DNA of 33,008 nt from an uncultured Lachnospiraceae bacterium (lineage in GTDB: Bacteria > Bacillota > Clostridia > Lachnospirales > Lachnospiraceae). A model generated the notes under the pieces. That model ran no database searches. It saw only the letters and a program-made list of their open reading frames with translations, and had not been told where the DNA came from. Location of the stretch: contig CAMKEX010000012.1 in the NCBI GenBank assembly GCA_946411695.1, forward strand, positions 1 through 33,008. The letters run 5' to 3'. Below are positions 22,481-26,837 of the stretch, one piece after another (positions within the stretch are counted from its first letter, which is position 1; each line of letters begins with the position of its first letter). The translations under genes were made by a program, and so were the position numbers.

Positions 22481-23926
22481 TCAGGAAAGCTTGTCAATGG
22501 ATCTGCGGATTCTGGAGAGCGACTCCTCTTTGCCCAGGATCTCCAGGATCTCTGTCGCTCCGGCGGGTGTCACGCTCTTGCCGGATACCGCGATGCGGAC
22601 AGGCCAGAGAACATAGCCGTTCTTGTAGCCTTTTTCCGCAATAAAGGCCTTGAGAGCCGCAAAGAGGTCCTCGTTGGTCCAGGAATCCTGCGCCTCGAGG
22701 ACAGGCAGGACCTCCTGCAGGACAGTCAGAGCTGTCTCGGGATTGGTCTTCATCTTCTTGTGGCGGAAAAGCTCCGCATCATAGTCGGGCAGTTCCTCAA
22801 AGAAGGAGACCATATCCGGAATATCGGGCCAGATCTCGATGCGGGTGCGCACCATCTCAGAGATCTTGCGCAGGTCGAGGTCTTTGCTGATGGCCTTCCT
22901 GAGCCAGGGCTCCGCCTGTGCAAAGAAGACATCGGGATCCATGGCCTTGAGATATTCGCCGTTCATCCAGCGGAGTTTTGTGTAATCGAACACAGAGGGG
23001 GAACGGCCCATGCGGTGGTAGTCAAACTGCTCCACCAGTTCCTCGAGGGAGAAGATCTCCCGGTCGCTGTCGGGGGACCATCCCAGAAGAGCGATAAAAT
23101 TGACAACCGCTTCGGATACAAATCCCTGTTCGATCAGATCCTCATAGGAGGAGTGGCCGCTGCGCTTGGACAGCTTGTGGTGCTCCTCGTCTGTGATCAG
23201 CGGGCAGTGGATATACTTGGGAATCTCCCAGCCGAAGGCCTCATAGAGGCGGTTGTACTTGGGCGTGGAGGAGATGTACTCATTGCCGCGGATGACATGG
23301 GTGATACCCATGAGGTGGTCGTCGACGACATTGGCGAAATTGTAGGTGGGATAGCCGTCGGACTTGATGAGGATCATGTCGTCAAGCTCTTTGTTCTCGA
23401 CCGTGACATCGCCGTAGAGCTCGTCCGTGAAGGTCGTGGTGCCTTCCTGGGGATTGTTCTGGCGGATGACATAGGGCTTGCCCGCAGCGAGATTTTTCTC
23501 CACTTCTTCTTTGGACAGATGGAGGCAGTGCTTGTCGTAGACATTGATCTCCTTGCCCTCGATGGTCTGTGTCAGTGAAGCCAGACGTTCCGGTGTGCAG
23601 AAGCAGTAATATGCCTCTCCCTTTTCGATCAGTTCCTTTGCATACTTTGTGTAGATGCCTGCTGCGACACGCTCGCTCTGAACATAGGGACCGACGCCGC
23701 CGTCCTTGTCAGGGCTCTCGTCGGGGATCAGTCTGGTCTCCTCCAGTGTGCGGTTGATGATCTCCACCGCTCCCTCGACCTGGCGGACCTGGTCGGTATC
23801 TTCGATCCGAAGGATGAAGTCTCCGCCTTCGTGTTTGGCGATGAGATAGGCATAAAGCGCTGTGCGCAGGTTTCCGACATGCATGCGGCCCGTAGGACTG
23901 GGCGCGTATCTGGTTCTGATTTTCAT
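22481..23926 (-). CDS. gltX: Glutamyl-tRNA synthetase
   Basis: A class I aminoacyl-tRNA synthetase that charges tRNA-Glu. In bacteria lacking GlnRS it also charges tRNA-Gln. The 481-residue protein starts [13 protein letters not shown] with the HIGH-type motif at H16 (HVGN) and has the KMSKS-type motif KLSKR at 251-255. The frame is open upstream to 24112, but ATG 23926 has GGAG six bases before it and matches the conserved N-terminus, so the longer form and its overlap with the preceding gene are artefacts. No T-box leader was seen in the 121-base spacer. It lies between the RNase HI-dUTPase fusion and the helicase gene. Confidence 0.96.
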
Positions 23927-24031
23927 AGTCTGCTCCAATGTATTGTGTAGGGTTAAAAAGTAGCGTTGAATGACTTGGTTTTTCAATAAAAGAAGGCAGA
24001 AACAGCAGGATGAAAATCCGCGGCCGCTTCC

Positions 24032-24059
24032 TTCTATTGTAGTCCTTCTATTGTAGTCC
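24032..24059. repeat. Perfect 14-bp tandem duplication at the stop codon of the RNase HI-dUTPase gene
   Basis: TTCTATTGTAGTCC occurs twice head to tail on the plus strand. The upstream copy (46-59 side) encodes the final codons and stop TAG; the second copy lies just beyond the stop and would encode the same ending. Confidence 0.92.
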
Positions 24060-25106
24060 GGTGGATCCGAATCCGCCCCGGTCCTCGCTGTCCAGATGAT
24101 CGACTTCCTCAAAAATGAGGTCGGGCTGGCGGCGTTCTATACGGAACTGGCAGATCCTGTCGTTGATATGGATGTGTGTGTCCCGCATGGCGATGACGGG
24201 CATTCTCCACAGATCGCCGTCTCCGCAGTAGGAATTGTCGACGACACCGTGGTGATTGGCCTGAATGATGCCGAAATTCTTGTAGGTGCTGCTGCGGGGA
24301 ACGATATGGGCTTCGTATCCCTCGGGGAGTTTCATGGCCACCCCAAGGCTGATGAGGCGGAAATCACCCTTTTTGAGTTCAACGTCCTCCGCGGAGCGAA
24401 GATCGACCCAGTTGGCGCTGTTGGTCGGCGGCTGCAGCTTGTCAATCTGATCGCTCAGATAGCGGACACGGATGGTCTGCACAGGTTCCGTCCGGGGCGT
24501 CTGAGATGTCACAGATGTCCCTGACAGGCGGGAGGAAGTCCGGTCGGGTTCCGCAGCTGCAGGTGCGGCCTGCCCGGCTTCTTCAGACCTGGTATCGAGC
24601 CATTCCGACGCCTGTGTCAGAGGGGCGGCAGTGTCGTCAAAACTCCAGCCCACCTTGTCCGCCGCGGCTGTCGCCAGCTGGTCGCAGCGCTCGTTTTCCG
24701 GGTGGTCGGCGTGGCCCTTGACCCAGCGGAAGGTCATTCTGTGGGGCGCAAGCGCTTTCAGGAGACGCGTCCACAGGTCCTGGTTCTTGACAGGCGCCTT
24801 TGAAGAGGTCACCCAGCCGTTCTTCTGCCAGTTGCTGATCCAGTTCTTTGCAAAAGCGTCCACAACATACCTGGAATCCGAATAGATCACGCCTTCACAG
24901 GGCTCGCCCAGGCGGCCGATCTCTTCCAGGGCCGCAATGACCCCCATCAGTTCCATGCGGTTGTTGGTGGTGTGGGGATAACCGCCGGAGAGTTCTTTTT
25001 CAAGAGTCTGCCCCTGCGCATTCTGCAGGCGGACGATTGCCCCGTAACCACCGGGGCCGTCCGGGTTGCCGCGCGCGGCTCCGTCTGTAAAAATAATGAC
25101 TTTCAT
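24048..25106 (-). CDS. RNase HI - dUTPase fusion protein
   Basis: One uninterrupted 352-residue frame holds two complete enzymes. Residues 1-~150 are RNase HI, with the catalytic set D8, E52, D77, H132 and D142 ([40 protein letters not shown]). Residues ~210-352 are a trimeric-type dUTPase, with motifs D235-L-R-S-A, P270-R-S-S, GVVD290NSY, R317-I-C-Q and R343-GGFGSTG. A linker of about 55 residues rich in Ala, Thr, Ser and Pro joins them, with no internal ATG at the dUTPase start. RNase HI removes RNA from RNA-DNA hybrids; dUTPase keeps uracil out of DNA. AAGGA precedes the ATG by 10 bases. The MutS-like gene ends 24 bases upstream. Confidence 0.93.
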
Positions 25107-25130
25107 ATAGTCTGTTTCCTTTTATCAGTT

Positions 25131-26837
25131 TTACTGCCAGTTCCCCTCCTGCAGAAATCTGTCAGCCCGCTCCCTGGCCTTGTCAACGATGGCGCGGTCA
25201 TAGCCCAGGGTACCCAGAAGGGCAATGGCATTGCAGGAAGTCGAAGGTCCCTTCATCAGTCTGTAGGAGAAGCGGACGTCCCCGTCCACGATCTCCTCTC
25301 CGAAGTGGTAGTTGTCATAGACATCCTGCAGAAGACCTGTCAGTTCAAGGTCGTGGGTAGCCGCAAAGCAGAGGGTCTTTGTCCCCGCAAAGCAGCGCAG
25401 GATCTCCGCGGACGCGGCGATGCGCTCCACGGTATTCGTGCCTCTGAGCACCTCATCGATACAGCACAGGACCGGGTTCTGCTGCCTGGAGGCGTCCGTT
25501 TTCTGCTCCGCCGCAGCGAGGATCCTTCGAAGGGATTTGATCTCCACAATAAAATAGCTTTCTCCGTCCTGCAGGCTGTCCCTGAGTGCCATGGAAGAAT
25601 AGATCCTGTAGCAGCCGGCGCGATAGCTCTCAGCGGGAGCGATGCCCGCCGTCTGGGACAGCAGGGCGCATAGGGCCGCCGCCTTCAGGAAAGTGGATTT
25701 TCCGGAGGCGTTGGAGCCGGTCAGAAGGACAGGGCGGGACGCTTCTATGCTGTTGCTGACAGGATCAGCCAGAAGCGGATGATACAGGTCCCGGGCACTA
25801 AAGGATGCATCCTCTTCCAGGACGGGAACCGCATAAAAAGGCAGGGTCTGCCTCCAGGATGCAATGCTGATACAGGCATCGATCCGTCCGGTGATGGTCA
25901 GAAGGGCATCGATCTCCTCCTGCCTTCCCCGCATCTGTGCCAGCATTTTGTTGAATTTGATGAGATCCAGATGAAAGAGGATCCGCACATATTCCATGAT
26001 GAAGCCGAAGGGGTCTGAATCCGTACCCGCACTTCCCAGCAGCAAAGAAGATCCTCTGCGGAAACCGGCAAATGCCTTCAGCAGTCCGGGGATCTGCCGG
26101 GTCTCCTCCTCGACAGCCGGGCATTTCTCTTTTTCCAGGGCCTGTGCGCAGTCCAGCAGGCGGAAAATGTAGTTGAACACCTGAAAATAGGGCGCGATGA
26201 CAGCCTTTTCCCTGAAATACGTGCGCAGATTCCAGGCAAAAACGAACAGAAGCACGAGAATGCCGATCCCTGTGTGCAGGAACATCAGACCGAAGGCTGC
26301 AAAGGGCGCAATGGCTGCAATATAATGGGGCAGATTTCTGCGCTCCCCCAGAGCAGTCGTAAAATCGAGGTAGTCGTACAGGGAATACCGGCCCGCGTGC
26401 CCCAGCTCTGAAAGGATCTCCTGCAGGCGGATCCTGGTCTCCTCATTGGCAGGGTCCGAAAACCAGTCATACTTTTCCTGCTTGAAAGCAAGCTCCCGGG
26501 CACTCATGGAGGGCGTCCGCAGAAGGTAATACATATACTCCTCCCCTGACGCGCTGCAGGTGCTGTCCATCACATGGAAGAGACGGTCCAGATCAAGATC
26601 GTTCCAGGTGATGTCATCGATCTGGAAGCCCTGCCTGTGGTGCAGATAGTACTGCGGGATCTGGGCATAGCGCTCCGGCGGCGTCTTCTTTGCAGAAGGC
26701 TTTCCGAAACCGCTGCGCAGTGACTGAATCAGTTTTGCGCGGGTCCTCTTCCGCTCCTGCATGCCCAGCATCAGAGTGATGACAGCAAACAGGATGAGAA
26801 GACCCGCAAATGAAAAGATCGGCTGAAATTGTCCCAT
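25131..26837 (-). CDS. Membrane-anchored MutS-like ATPase
   Basis: A 568-residue member of the MutS superfamily, distinct from the true MutS encoded at 11987-14776. It lacks the FYE mismatch-recognition domain. It has an N-terminal membrane segment (about 9-26), a second hydrophobic region that could form two further segments (about 171-206), a MutS-like core, and the ATPase domain with Walker A GSNASGKST (374-382) and Walker B CCIDEVLRGTN (D461, E462). Proteins of this kind are widespread in Firmicutes and Bacteroidetes, but I know of no settled function. The ribosome binding site is weak (GGAG about 14 bases before the ATG). It lies 34 bases after the beta-helix gene and 24 bases before the RNase HI-dUTPase gene. 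Confidence 0.85.
   Translation of the reverse strand: MGQFQPIFSFAGLLILFAVITLMLGMQERKRTRAKLIQSLRSGFGKPSAKKTPPERYAQIPQYYLHHRQGFQIDDITWNDLDLDRLFHVMDSTCSASGEEYMYYLLRTPSMSARELAFKQEKYDWFSDPANEETRIRLQEILSELGHAGRYSLYDYLDFTTALGERRNLPHYIAAIAPFAAFGLMFLHTGIGILVLLFVFAWNLRTYFREKAVIAPYFQVFNYIFRLLDCAQALEKEKCPAVEEETRQIPGLLKAFAGFRRGSSLLLGSAGTDSDPFGFIMEYVRILFHLDLIKFNKMLAQMRGRQEEIDALLTITGRIDACISIASWRQTLPFYAVPVLEEDASFSARDLYHPLLADPVSNSIEASRPVLLTGSNASGKSTFLKAAALCALLSQTAGIAPAESYRAGCYRIYSSMALRDSLQDGESYFIVEIKSLRRILAAAEQKTDASRQQNPVLCCIDEVLRGTNTVERIAASAEILRCFAGTKTLCFAATHDLELTGLLQDVYDNYHFGEEIVDGDVRFSYRLMKGPSTSCNAIALLGTLGYDRAIVDKARERADRFLQEGNWQ

Follow-up and report, generated by a model that had tools for sequence, protein, structure and literature searches.

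The window, a stretch of 33,008 nucleotides from an uncultured Lachnospiraceae bacterium of gut or rumen, carries on its minus strand a single open frame of 352 codons that runs from an ATG to a stop codon through an RNase HI domain, a low-complexity linker and a dUTPase domain. An SD-like AAGGA lies about 10 nt upstream of the ATG, and a scan of positions 23800-25300 returned no promoter-like site and one terminator-like site, on the plus strand, a number below the shuffled mean. The gene, its parts and the two flanking genes are as follows.

25131..26837, minus strand: gene of a MutS-like ATPase (MutS domain V), upstream of the fusion gene by 24 bases
24048..25106, minus strand: RNase HI-dUTPase fusion gene, single open frame, 352 codons (352 aa), ATG to stop
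24657..25106, minus strand: RNase HI domain, aa 1-150 (PF00075, NF001236; D8, E52, D77, H132, D142)
24474..24656, minus strand: low-complexity linker, aa 151-211 (61 aa), including the tail at aa 151-169; the remainder is hypervariable between species
24600..24656, minus strand: fusion-specific tail, aa 151-169, 19 residues, ending in W169
24051..24473, minus strand: dUTPase domain, aa 212-352, YncF/YosS-like, five motifs (PF00692, PDB 2xcd, motif strings)
24048-24050, minus strand: stop codon of the fusion gene
22481..23923, minus strand: gltX (glutamate-tRNA ligase), downstream of the fusion gene; homology from about 23923, within a TTG frame that extends to 24112

The two domains of the fused protein

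The N-terminal part is matched by the Pfam model PF00075 (RNase_H) at aa 2-149 with an E value of 6.6e-40 and 137 bits against a cut-off of 25.8, and it also passes the NCBIfam cut-off for RNase HI (NF001236; 183.1 vs. 160 bits). D8, E52, D77, H132 and D142, which we take to be the equivalents of the E. coli catalytic residues D10, E48, D70, H124 and D134, align to RNase HI chains and are identical in 10/10 fused proteins. The protein resembles E. coli-type RNase HI (NF001236, PF00075) over aa 3-149, including the catalytic D/E/D/H/D set, and differs from it in the added C-terminal tail, linker and dUTPase.

The C-terminal part is matched by PF00692 (dUTPase) at aa 234-350 (E 1.5e-10; 41.4 vs. 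a cut-off of 22 bits) and contains the strings DLR (235), PRSS (270), GVVD (287), RICQF (317) and RGGFGS (343), the five conserved motifs of trimeric dUTPases, with the catalytic Asp in motif III; D290 is identical across the aligned fused proteins. Besides RNase_H and dUTPase, the only further Pfam match in the fusion protein is a sub-cut-off match to DCD. The NCBIfam dUTPase models matched as well, with none passing its cut-off (TIGR00576, 68.7 vs. 102.55; NF001862, 61.1 vs. 103; NF010561, 32.6 vs. 223), which we read as a consequence of the domain belonging to the YncF/YosS branch. The best solved relatives of the dUTPase domain are indeed YncF/YosS (PDB 2xcd, E 2.9e-52), and with the full-length query 2xcd gave an E value of 4.1e-51, and the other dUTPases among the best 60 of 106 matches reached 8.2e-13 at best. 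B. subtilis YncF and SP-beta YosS (2xcd, 4ao5, 2baz; E 2.9e-52 to 3.4e-50) align with the domain at its motifs in two alignments, but these chains stand alone, at 142-145 aa, unlike the fused domain.

The fusion is real. An earlier note on this DNA had proposed RNase HI and dUTPase in one polypeptide, with both catalytic sets complete, and this is borne out: the frame is one, both Pfam models are above cut-off, and the catalytic residues and motif strings of the two enzymes are present. The note had also placed the gene 24 bases after a MutS-like ATPase, in agreement with the end of the MutS-like frame at 25131. Among Pfam models this ATPase matches MutS domain V only, and the MutS1, MutS2 and KamC models matched it far below their cut-offs.

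Distribution, neighbourhood and history

In a scan of named genomes, 9 of 79 loci (from the best 80 stretches of 212 relatives) were single-frame fusions. One record with such a fusion, NZ_FNFZ01000018, is from Sarcina sp. DSM 11001, apparently a cultured carrier, judging from the collection number and from a record title that is not marked as MAG. The assembly behind the window is a draft of 301 contigs, and a sequencing or assembly artefact that joined two frames, with a stop or frameshift hidden in the junction (the outcome that the earlier note had named as fatal to its claim), might be suspected for that reason; however, nine other species, NZ_FNFZ01000018 included, carry the same open frame with different linkers, which rules this candidate out and leaves its probability negligible.

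Within the genus, 59 of the 62 sampled genomes gave a match and the region was compared in 58 (G002, G033 and G367 were left out as having no match, and G032 as having fragments only). Ten of the 58 are fused, 45 have adjacent but separate rnhA and dut genes, and three are assignable neither way, since the contig ends inside the junction (G009) or one gene is seen near a contig end (G380 and G007). Five genomes (G034, G024, G364, G379 and G365) had appeared fused by open-frame length, and direct ORF reading resolved them into separate ORFs. Where the genes are unfused, the gap between the aligned domains is 1-162 nt, and the dUTPase is of the same type as in the fusion in 19 genomes and canonical in 26.

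rnhA and dut are same-strand neighbours in all 55 genomes with both genes on one piece, and a mutS-like gene stands directly before rnhA in 54 of these 55 pieces; the order mutS-like, rnhA, dut, gltX, uvrD-like is found in 43, the other 12 being without one or more of these genes within the piece. topB is present in 26/55 pieces and a hexapeptide transferase in 29/55, all of these counts being based on homologues of the window's genes only, such that other genes may stand between the named ones. Unfused rnhA-dut neighbours also occur outside the genus (e.g., in G064, L235).

Among the matches listed in samples of 299 family, 293 class and 299 phylum genomes (the last searched at an E limit of 1e-20), both domains in one stop-free frame were found only in the window's own genome, a search that could miss a reverse-order fusion or a divergent dUTPase. 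The earlier note's view that Clostridia normally keep the two proteins separate fits these data, as they are otherwise separate among the matches listed in the sampled Clostridia. Reading 24 long frames from other taxa for the missing partner gave RNase HI and dUTPase together in 0/24; these comprised 11 RNase HI and four dUTPase places, five RNase HI and one dUTPase from the phylum sample, and G596, G470 (RNase HI) and G054 (dUTPase). A phage or plasmid origin was rejected: of the 1774 matching phage records and 819 matching plasmid records, none covers 80% of the query in a single place, and 13 viral-contig loci matched only from aa 184 onward. An Alicyclobacillus phage match over aa 130-350 is a frame of 314 residues in which a dUTPase is present and RNase HI gave no match.

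Frames chosen for their length show other partners. Pfam places a C-terminal Nudix domain after RNase HI in four Clostridia genomes with two family codes (L221:1267-2316, L222:699-1730, L223:766-1860 and L225:1265-2287); these proteins, with frames of 341-365 aa, are likewise RNase HI with a C-terminal domain of nucleotide-hydrolase type, and differ in having Nudix in place of dUTPase and in their family codes. By eye, L243 and L244 (G596 and G470) resemble these RNase HI-Nudix proteins. IspD is fused in front of RNase HI in three genomes with different family codes (L227:465-1703, L228:555-1700, L229:1329-2630), RNase HI-GNAT (L224:1272-2360) and HIT-RNase HI (L226:745-1662) occur in one genome each, and in the phylum sample RNase HI is followed by a PNP_UDP_1 phosphorylase domain (L237:1513-3162) or a beta-propeller (L238:1385-2782). 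On the dUTPase side, L240:534-1616 has about 200 in-frame residues, HNH/AP2-like by eye, before a YncF/YosS-like dUTPase (Pfam matched the dUTPase part only), and in L245:793-1815 (G054) a canonical dUTPase is followed in frame by a domain that is Nudix-like by eye.

The ten fused genomes and G009 form one clade (100/100) in a mutS-like+gltX tree of 58 rows, in which several long branches meet and the flagged rows lie outside the fused clade, and an earlier quick tree agrees at 100. Trees of the single domains, with 56 rows for RNase HI and 57 for dUTPase, each set the ten fused rows apart by a branch with an SH-aLRT of 100. The fused species being one clade, a single fusion of the neighbouring genes is therefore the simplest history, and one joining of adjacent rnhA and dut in a small group of related species is what these trees make most likely, with the precursor state supplied within the genus by the 45 of 58 genomes in which the genes are adjacent and unfused. 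The dUTPase itself is less stable at this position: two distantly related types swap in the same slot beside rnhA (genus loci L148-L203), forming two groups in the dUTPase tree that are scattered on the neighbour-gene tree and need about four changes, and hence the dut gene beside rnhA seems to have been exchanged in place more than once.

Each of the ten fused genomes, and G009 as well, has a single PF00075 match and a single PF00692 match (11/11), and with these models no second RNase HI or dUTPase was found elsewhere in the fused genomes. RNase HII was found in 10/11. The dimeric dUTPase model PF08761 matched in 0/11, a negative of limited weight as the model reached its cut-off in 0/14 control genomes. 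The fusion gene is therefore the evident supplier of both enzymes, and this sole-copy claim, with completeness of the 11 genomes ranging from 75 to 98%, is firmest for the five that are at least 90% complete with no more than 5% contamination.

Linker, tail and selection

The linkers of the ten fused species are 47-100 aa long, all open, and different in sequence, with 76-83% of residues being A/G/S/T/P/E/K/D/Q/N. Under base shuffling the chance of each linker being stop-free is 0.018-0.18, and the product is about 1e-12, a value that is indicative only, as the species are related. The earlier note's description of a low-complexity junction without a stop stands; its length of about 55 residues becomes 61 aa by the boundaries used in this analysis, and its statement that the junction holds no start codon does not, given in-frame GTG triplets at codons 152, 199 and 209.

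Variable as the linker is, its first ~20 residues are similar in most fused proteins (about GWSxxDxAxPFxxxSEW). W169, the last residue of this tail, is identical in 11 aligned fused sequences (10 species, one of them twice); the linker start of G029 keeps little of the pattern apart from the Trp, and a Trp in the RNase HI tail was seen in 0 of the 45 unfused congeneric genomes. The linker of G368 (L036) contains a near-repeat, KASSNGSWPE, which suggests linker growth by slippage.

No SD-like motif stands at the tested spacing before the three GTG codons of the window linker, and the ten fused genes share no conserved internal start in their linkers, the positions mostly differing by species. 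G011 (only GTG152) and G027 (only GTG160) have their single start far upstream in the linker, and G014 has no internal in-frame start at all. An SD-like motif lies near an internal start in just two of the ten genes scanned, G374 (GTG215, AGGA at 4 nt) and G018 (GTG171, GGAG at 12 nt). Internal initiation is accordingly possible in some species, given GTG215 of G374; with starts mostly species-specific and absent in G014, separate translation of the dUTPase is therefore no conserved feature.

Selection has acted unequally on the parts. For the closest pair (G000 vs. G011), the only pair examined whose dS stays well short of saturation in every part, dN/dS is 0.040 for RNase HI, 0.056 for dUTPase and 0.62 for the linker. 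Over the six pairs tried, it ranged from 0.040 to 0.113 for RNase HI and from 0.013 to 0.087 for dUTPase, with dS frequently above 1 and many values other than those of G000-G011 saturated or near saturation. In the poorly aligned linker, four pairs gave 0.28-0.62 and two had infinite dS and no usable ratio. As judged from these substitution patterns, purifying selection is strong on both domains and far more relaxed in the linker.

What the fusion may do

Taken together, these observations make it very probable that the gene encodes one bifunctional housekeeping enzyme, derived from a single fusion of rnhA and dut, in which a probably trimeric dUTPase would carry tethered RNase HI domains. 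Under this model, the two genes would have fused in a common ancestor of one clade of Lachnospiraceae, rnhA losing its stop and dut its start, with a flexible linker left behind, and translation from the rnhA ATG would yield one chain, whose RNase HI domain is predicted to cut the RNA in RNA-DNA hybrids and whose dUTPase domain is predicted to convert dUTP to dUMP. The dUTPase part would probably form the usual homotrimer, with three RNase HI domains hanging from its N-termini on tethers and with the C-terminal dUTPase motif V left free by the domain order; RNase HI would be trivalent only if this dUTPase trimerises as its relatives do. The two active sites would most likely be largely independent, the shared chain fixing their ratio and co-localising the domains. 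According to passages of one paper (PMC4531489), beta-retroviral NC-dUTPase is a working trimeric dUTPase with an N-terminal nucleic-acid-binding domain, and to that extent it offers a precedent for such an addition to a trimeric dUTPase.

Whether joining the domains brought anything beyond co-translation is a separate matter. Nearly an even prospect, in our estimate, is that the fusion is neutral: adjacent genes would have merged by stop-codon loss, both enzymes would have continued to work, and the state would have been kept since re-splitting is hard and retention cheap. The hypervariable, relaxed linker is consistent with this, as is the fact that one origin suffices, and RNase HI is joined elsewhere in Bacillota to Nudix, IspD, GNAT, HIT, phosphorylase and beta-propeller domains, mostly with no evident common pathway. 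Indeed, these other fusions of RNase HI and of dUTPase indicate that both partners tolerate fusion, and fusion alone is therefore weak evidence of joint function. However, all ten readable species of the clade have retained the fusion, with a tail ending in an identical Trp, and rnhA and dut have stayed neighbours in 45 further genomes despite about four changes of the dut type; this persistent adjacency and the conserved Trp speak in favour of some link between rnhA and dut. Functional coupling, either as a trivalent RNase HI that would bind hybrids more tightly or as dUTP removal brought to replication forks or R-loops, is possible but, in our judgement, rather less probable. The domain order that leaves motif V free, a W169 tail that could be a docking motif, the MutS-like and UvrD-like genes nearby (and topB in just under half of the pieces), and lentiviral Pol, which keeps dUTPase beside RNase H in the passages cited (PMC4531489), would all suit it. 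On the other side, the neighbourhood also includes gltX and often the hexapeptide transferase, free dUTP diffuses such that local hydrolysis may gain little, and a role of coupling in genome sanitation is weakened by RNase HI being fused to IspD and GNAT as well, without obvious link. Its most elaborate form, a trivalent hybrid-clamping RNase HI docked through the W169 tail to a partner in replication or repair, as a single machine that would exclude both ribonucleotides and uracil from new DNA, we consider improbable.

The chain might alternatively not persist as one, or not be the only product. A host protease could cut the exposed linker and release two ordinary enzymes, and the linker composition given above is typical of protease-sensitive disorder; the lentiviral dUTPase is released from Gag-Pol by proteolysis (PMC4531489). 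The variable part of the linker shows no evident conserved cleavage site, though, and the nine window proteins scanned with Pfam and NCBIfam included no protease, so that we hold a mere precursor to be quite unlikely. Still further down the scale, and very unlikely, is a second product, with the dUTPase also made alone from a start inside the linker: GTG199 and GTG209 of the window gene and GTG215 of G374 with its AGGA could serve, but the start positions differ in most species, SD-like motifs are confined to G374 and G018, G014 has no such start, and those of G011 and G027 lie far upstream. We favor the intact bifunctional enzyme.

Known systems offer partial parallels. The bifunctional RNase H/acid phosphatase of NF005567 (which we take to be Rv2228c) likewise has RNase H with another enzyme attached at its C-terminus, but that enzyme is a phosphatase, and the fusion protein scores 47.3 against the cut-off of 326 and has no phosphatase domain in the Pfam scan. 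Non-primate lentiviral Pol has a dUTPase between RNase H and integrase, i.e., the same RNase H-dUTPase order, in the passages of PMC4531489; it is, however, a protease-cut viral polyprotein with RT and integrase, domains that Pfam does not find in the fusion protein. A 2007 survey of prokaryotic RNases H mentions, in the passages concerned, a dsRHbd domain and the RNase H-acid phosphatase enzyme (PMC1950709), and terms beginning with "dutp" or "fusion" are absent from its main text. Among the papers listed in searches of the open-licence literature, we found no description of an RNase HI-dUTPase fusion, and "dUTPase domain" and "RNase H domain" occurred together only in three papers that are, by title, on retroviruses.

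In conclusion, the domain architecture is real; it combines two ordinary enzymes, apparently arose once and within a narrow range of species, and had no earlier description in the literature searched. Two enzymes of genome sanitation are here cleanly joined in nature, their precursor state is still visible in 45 congeneric genomes, and with that precursor state and an apparently cultured carrier at hand, the effect of joining rnhA and dut is directly testable, intact vs. split.
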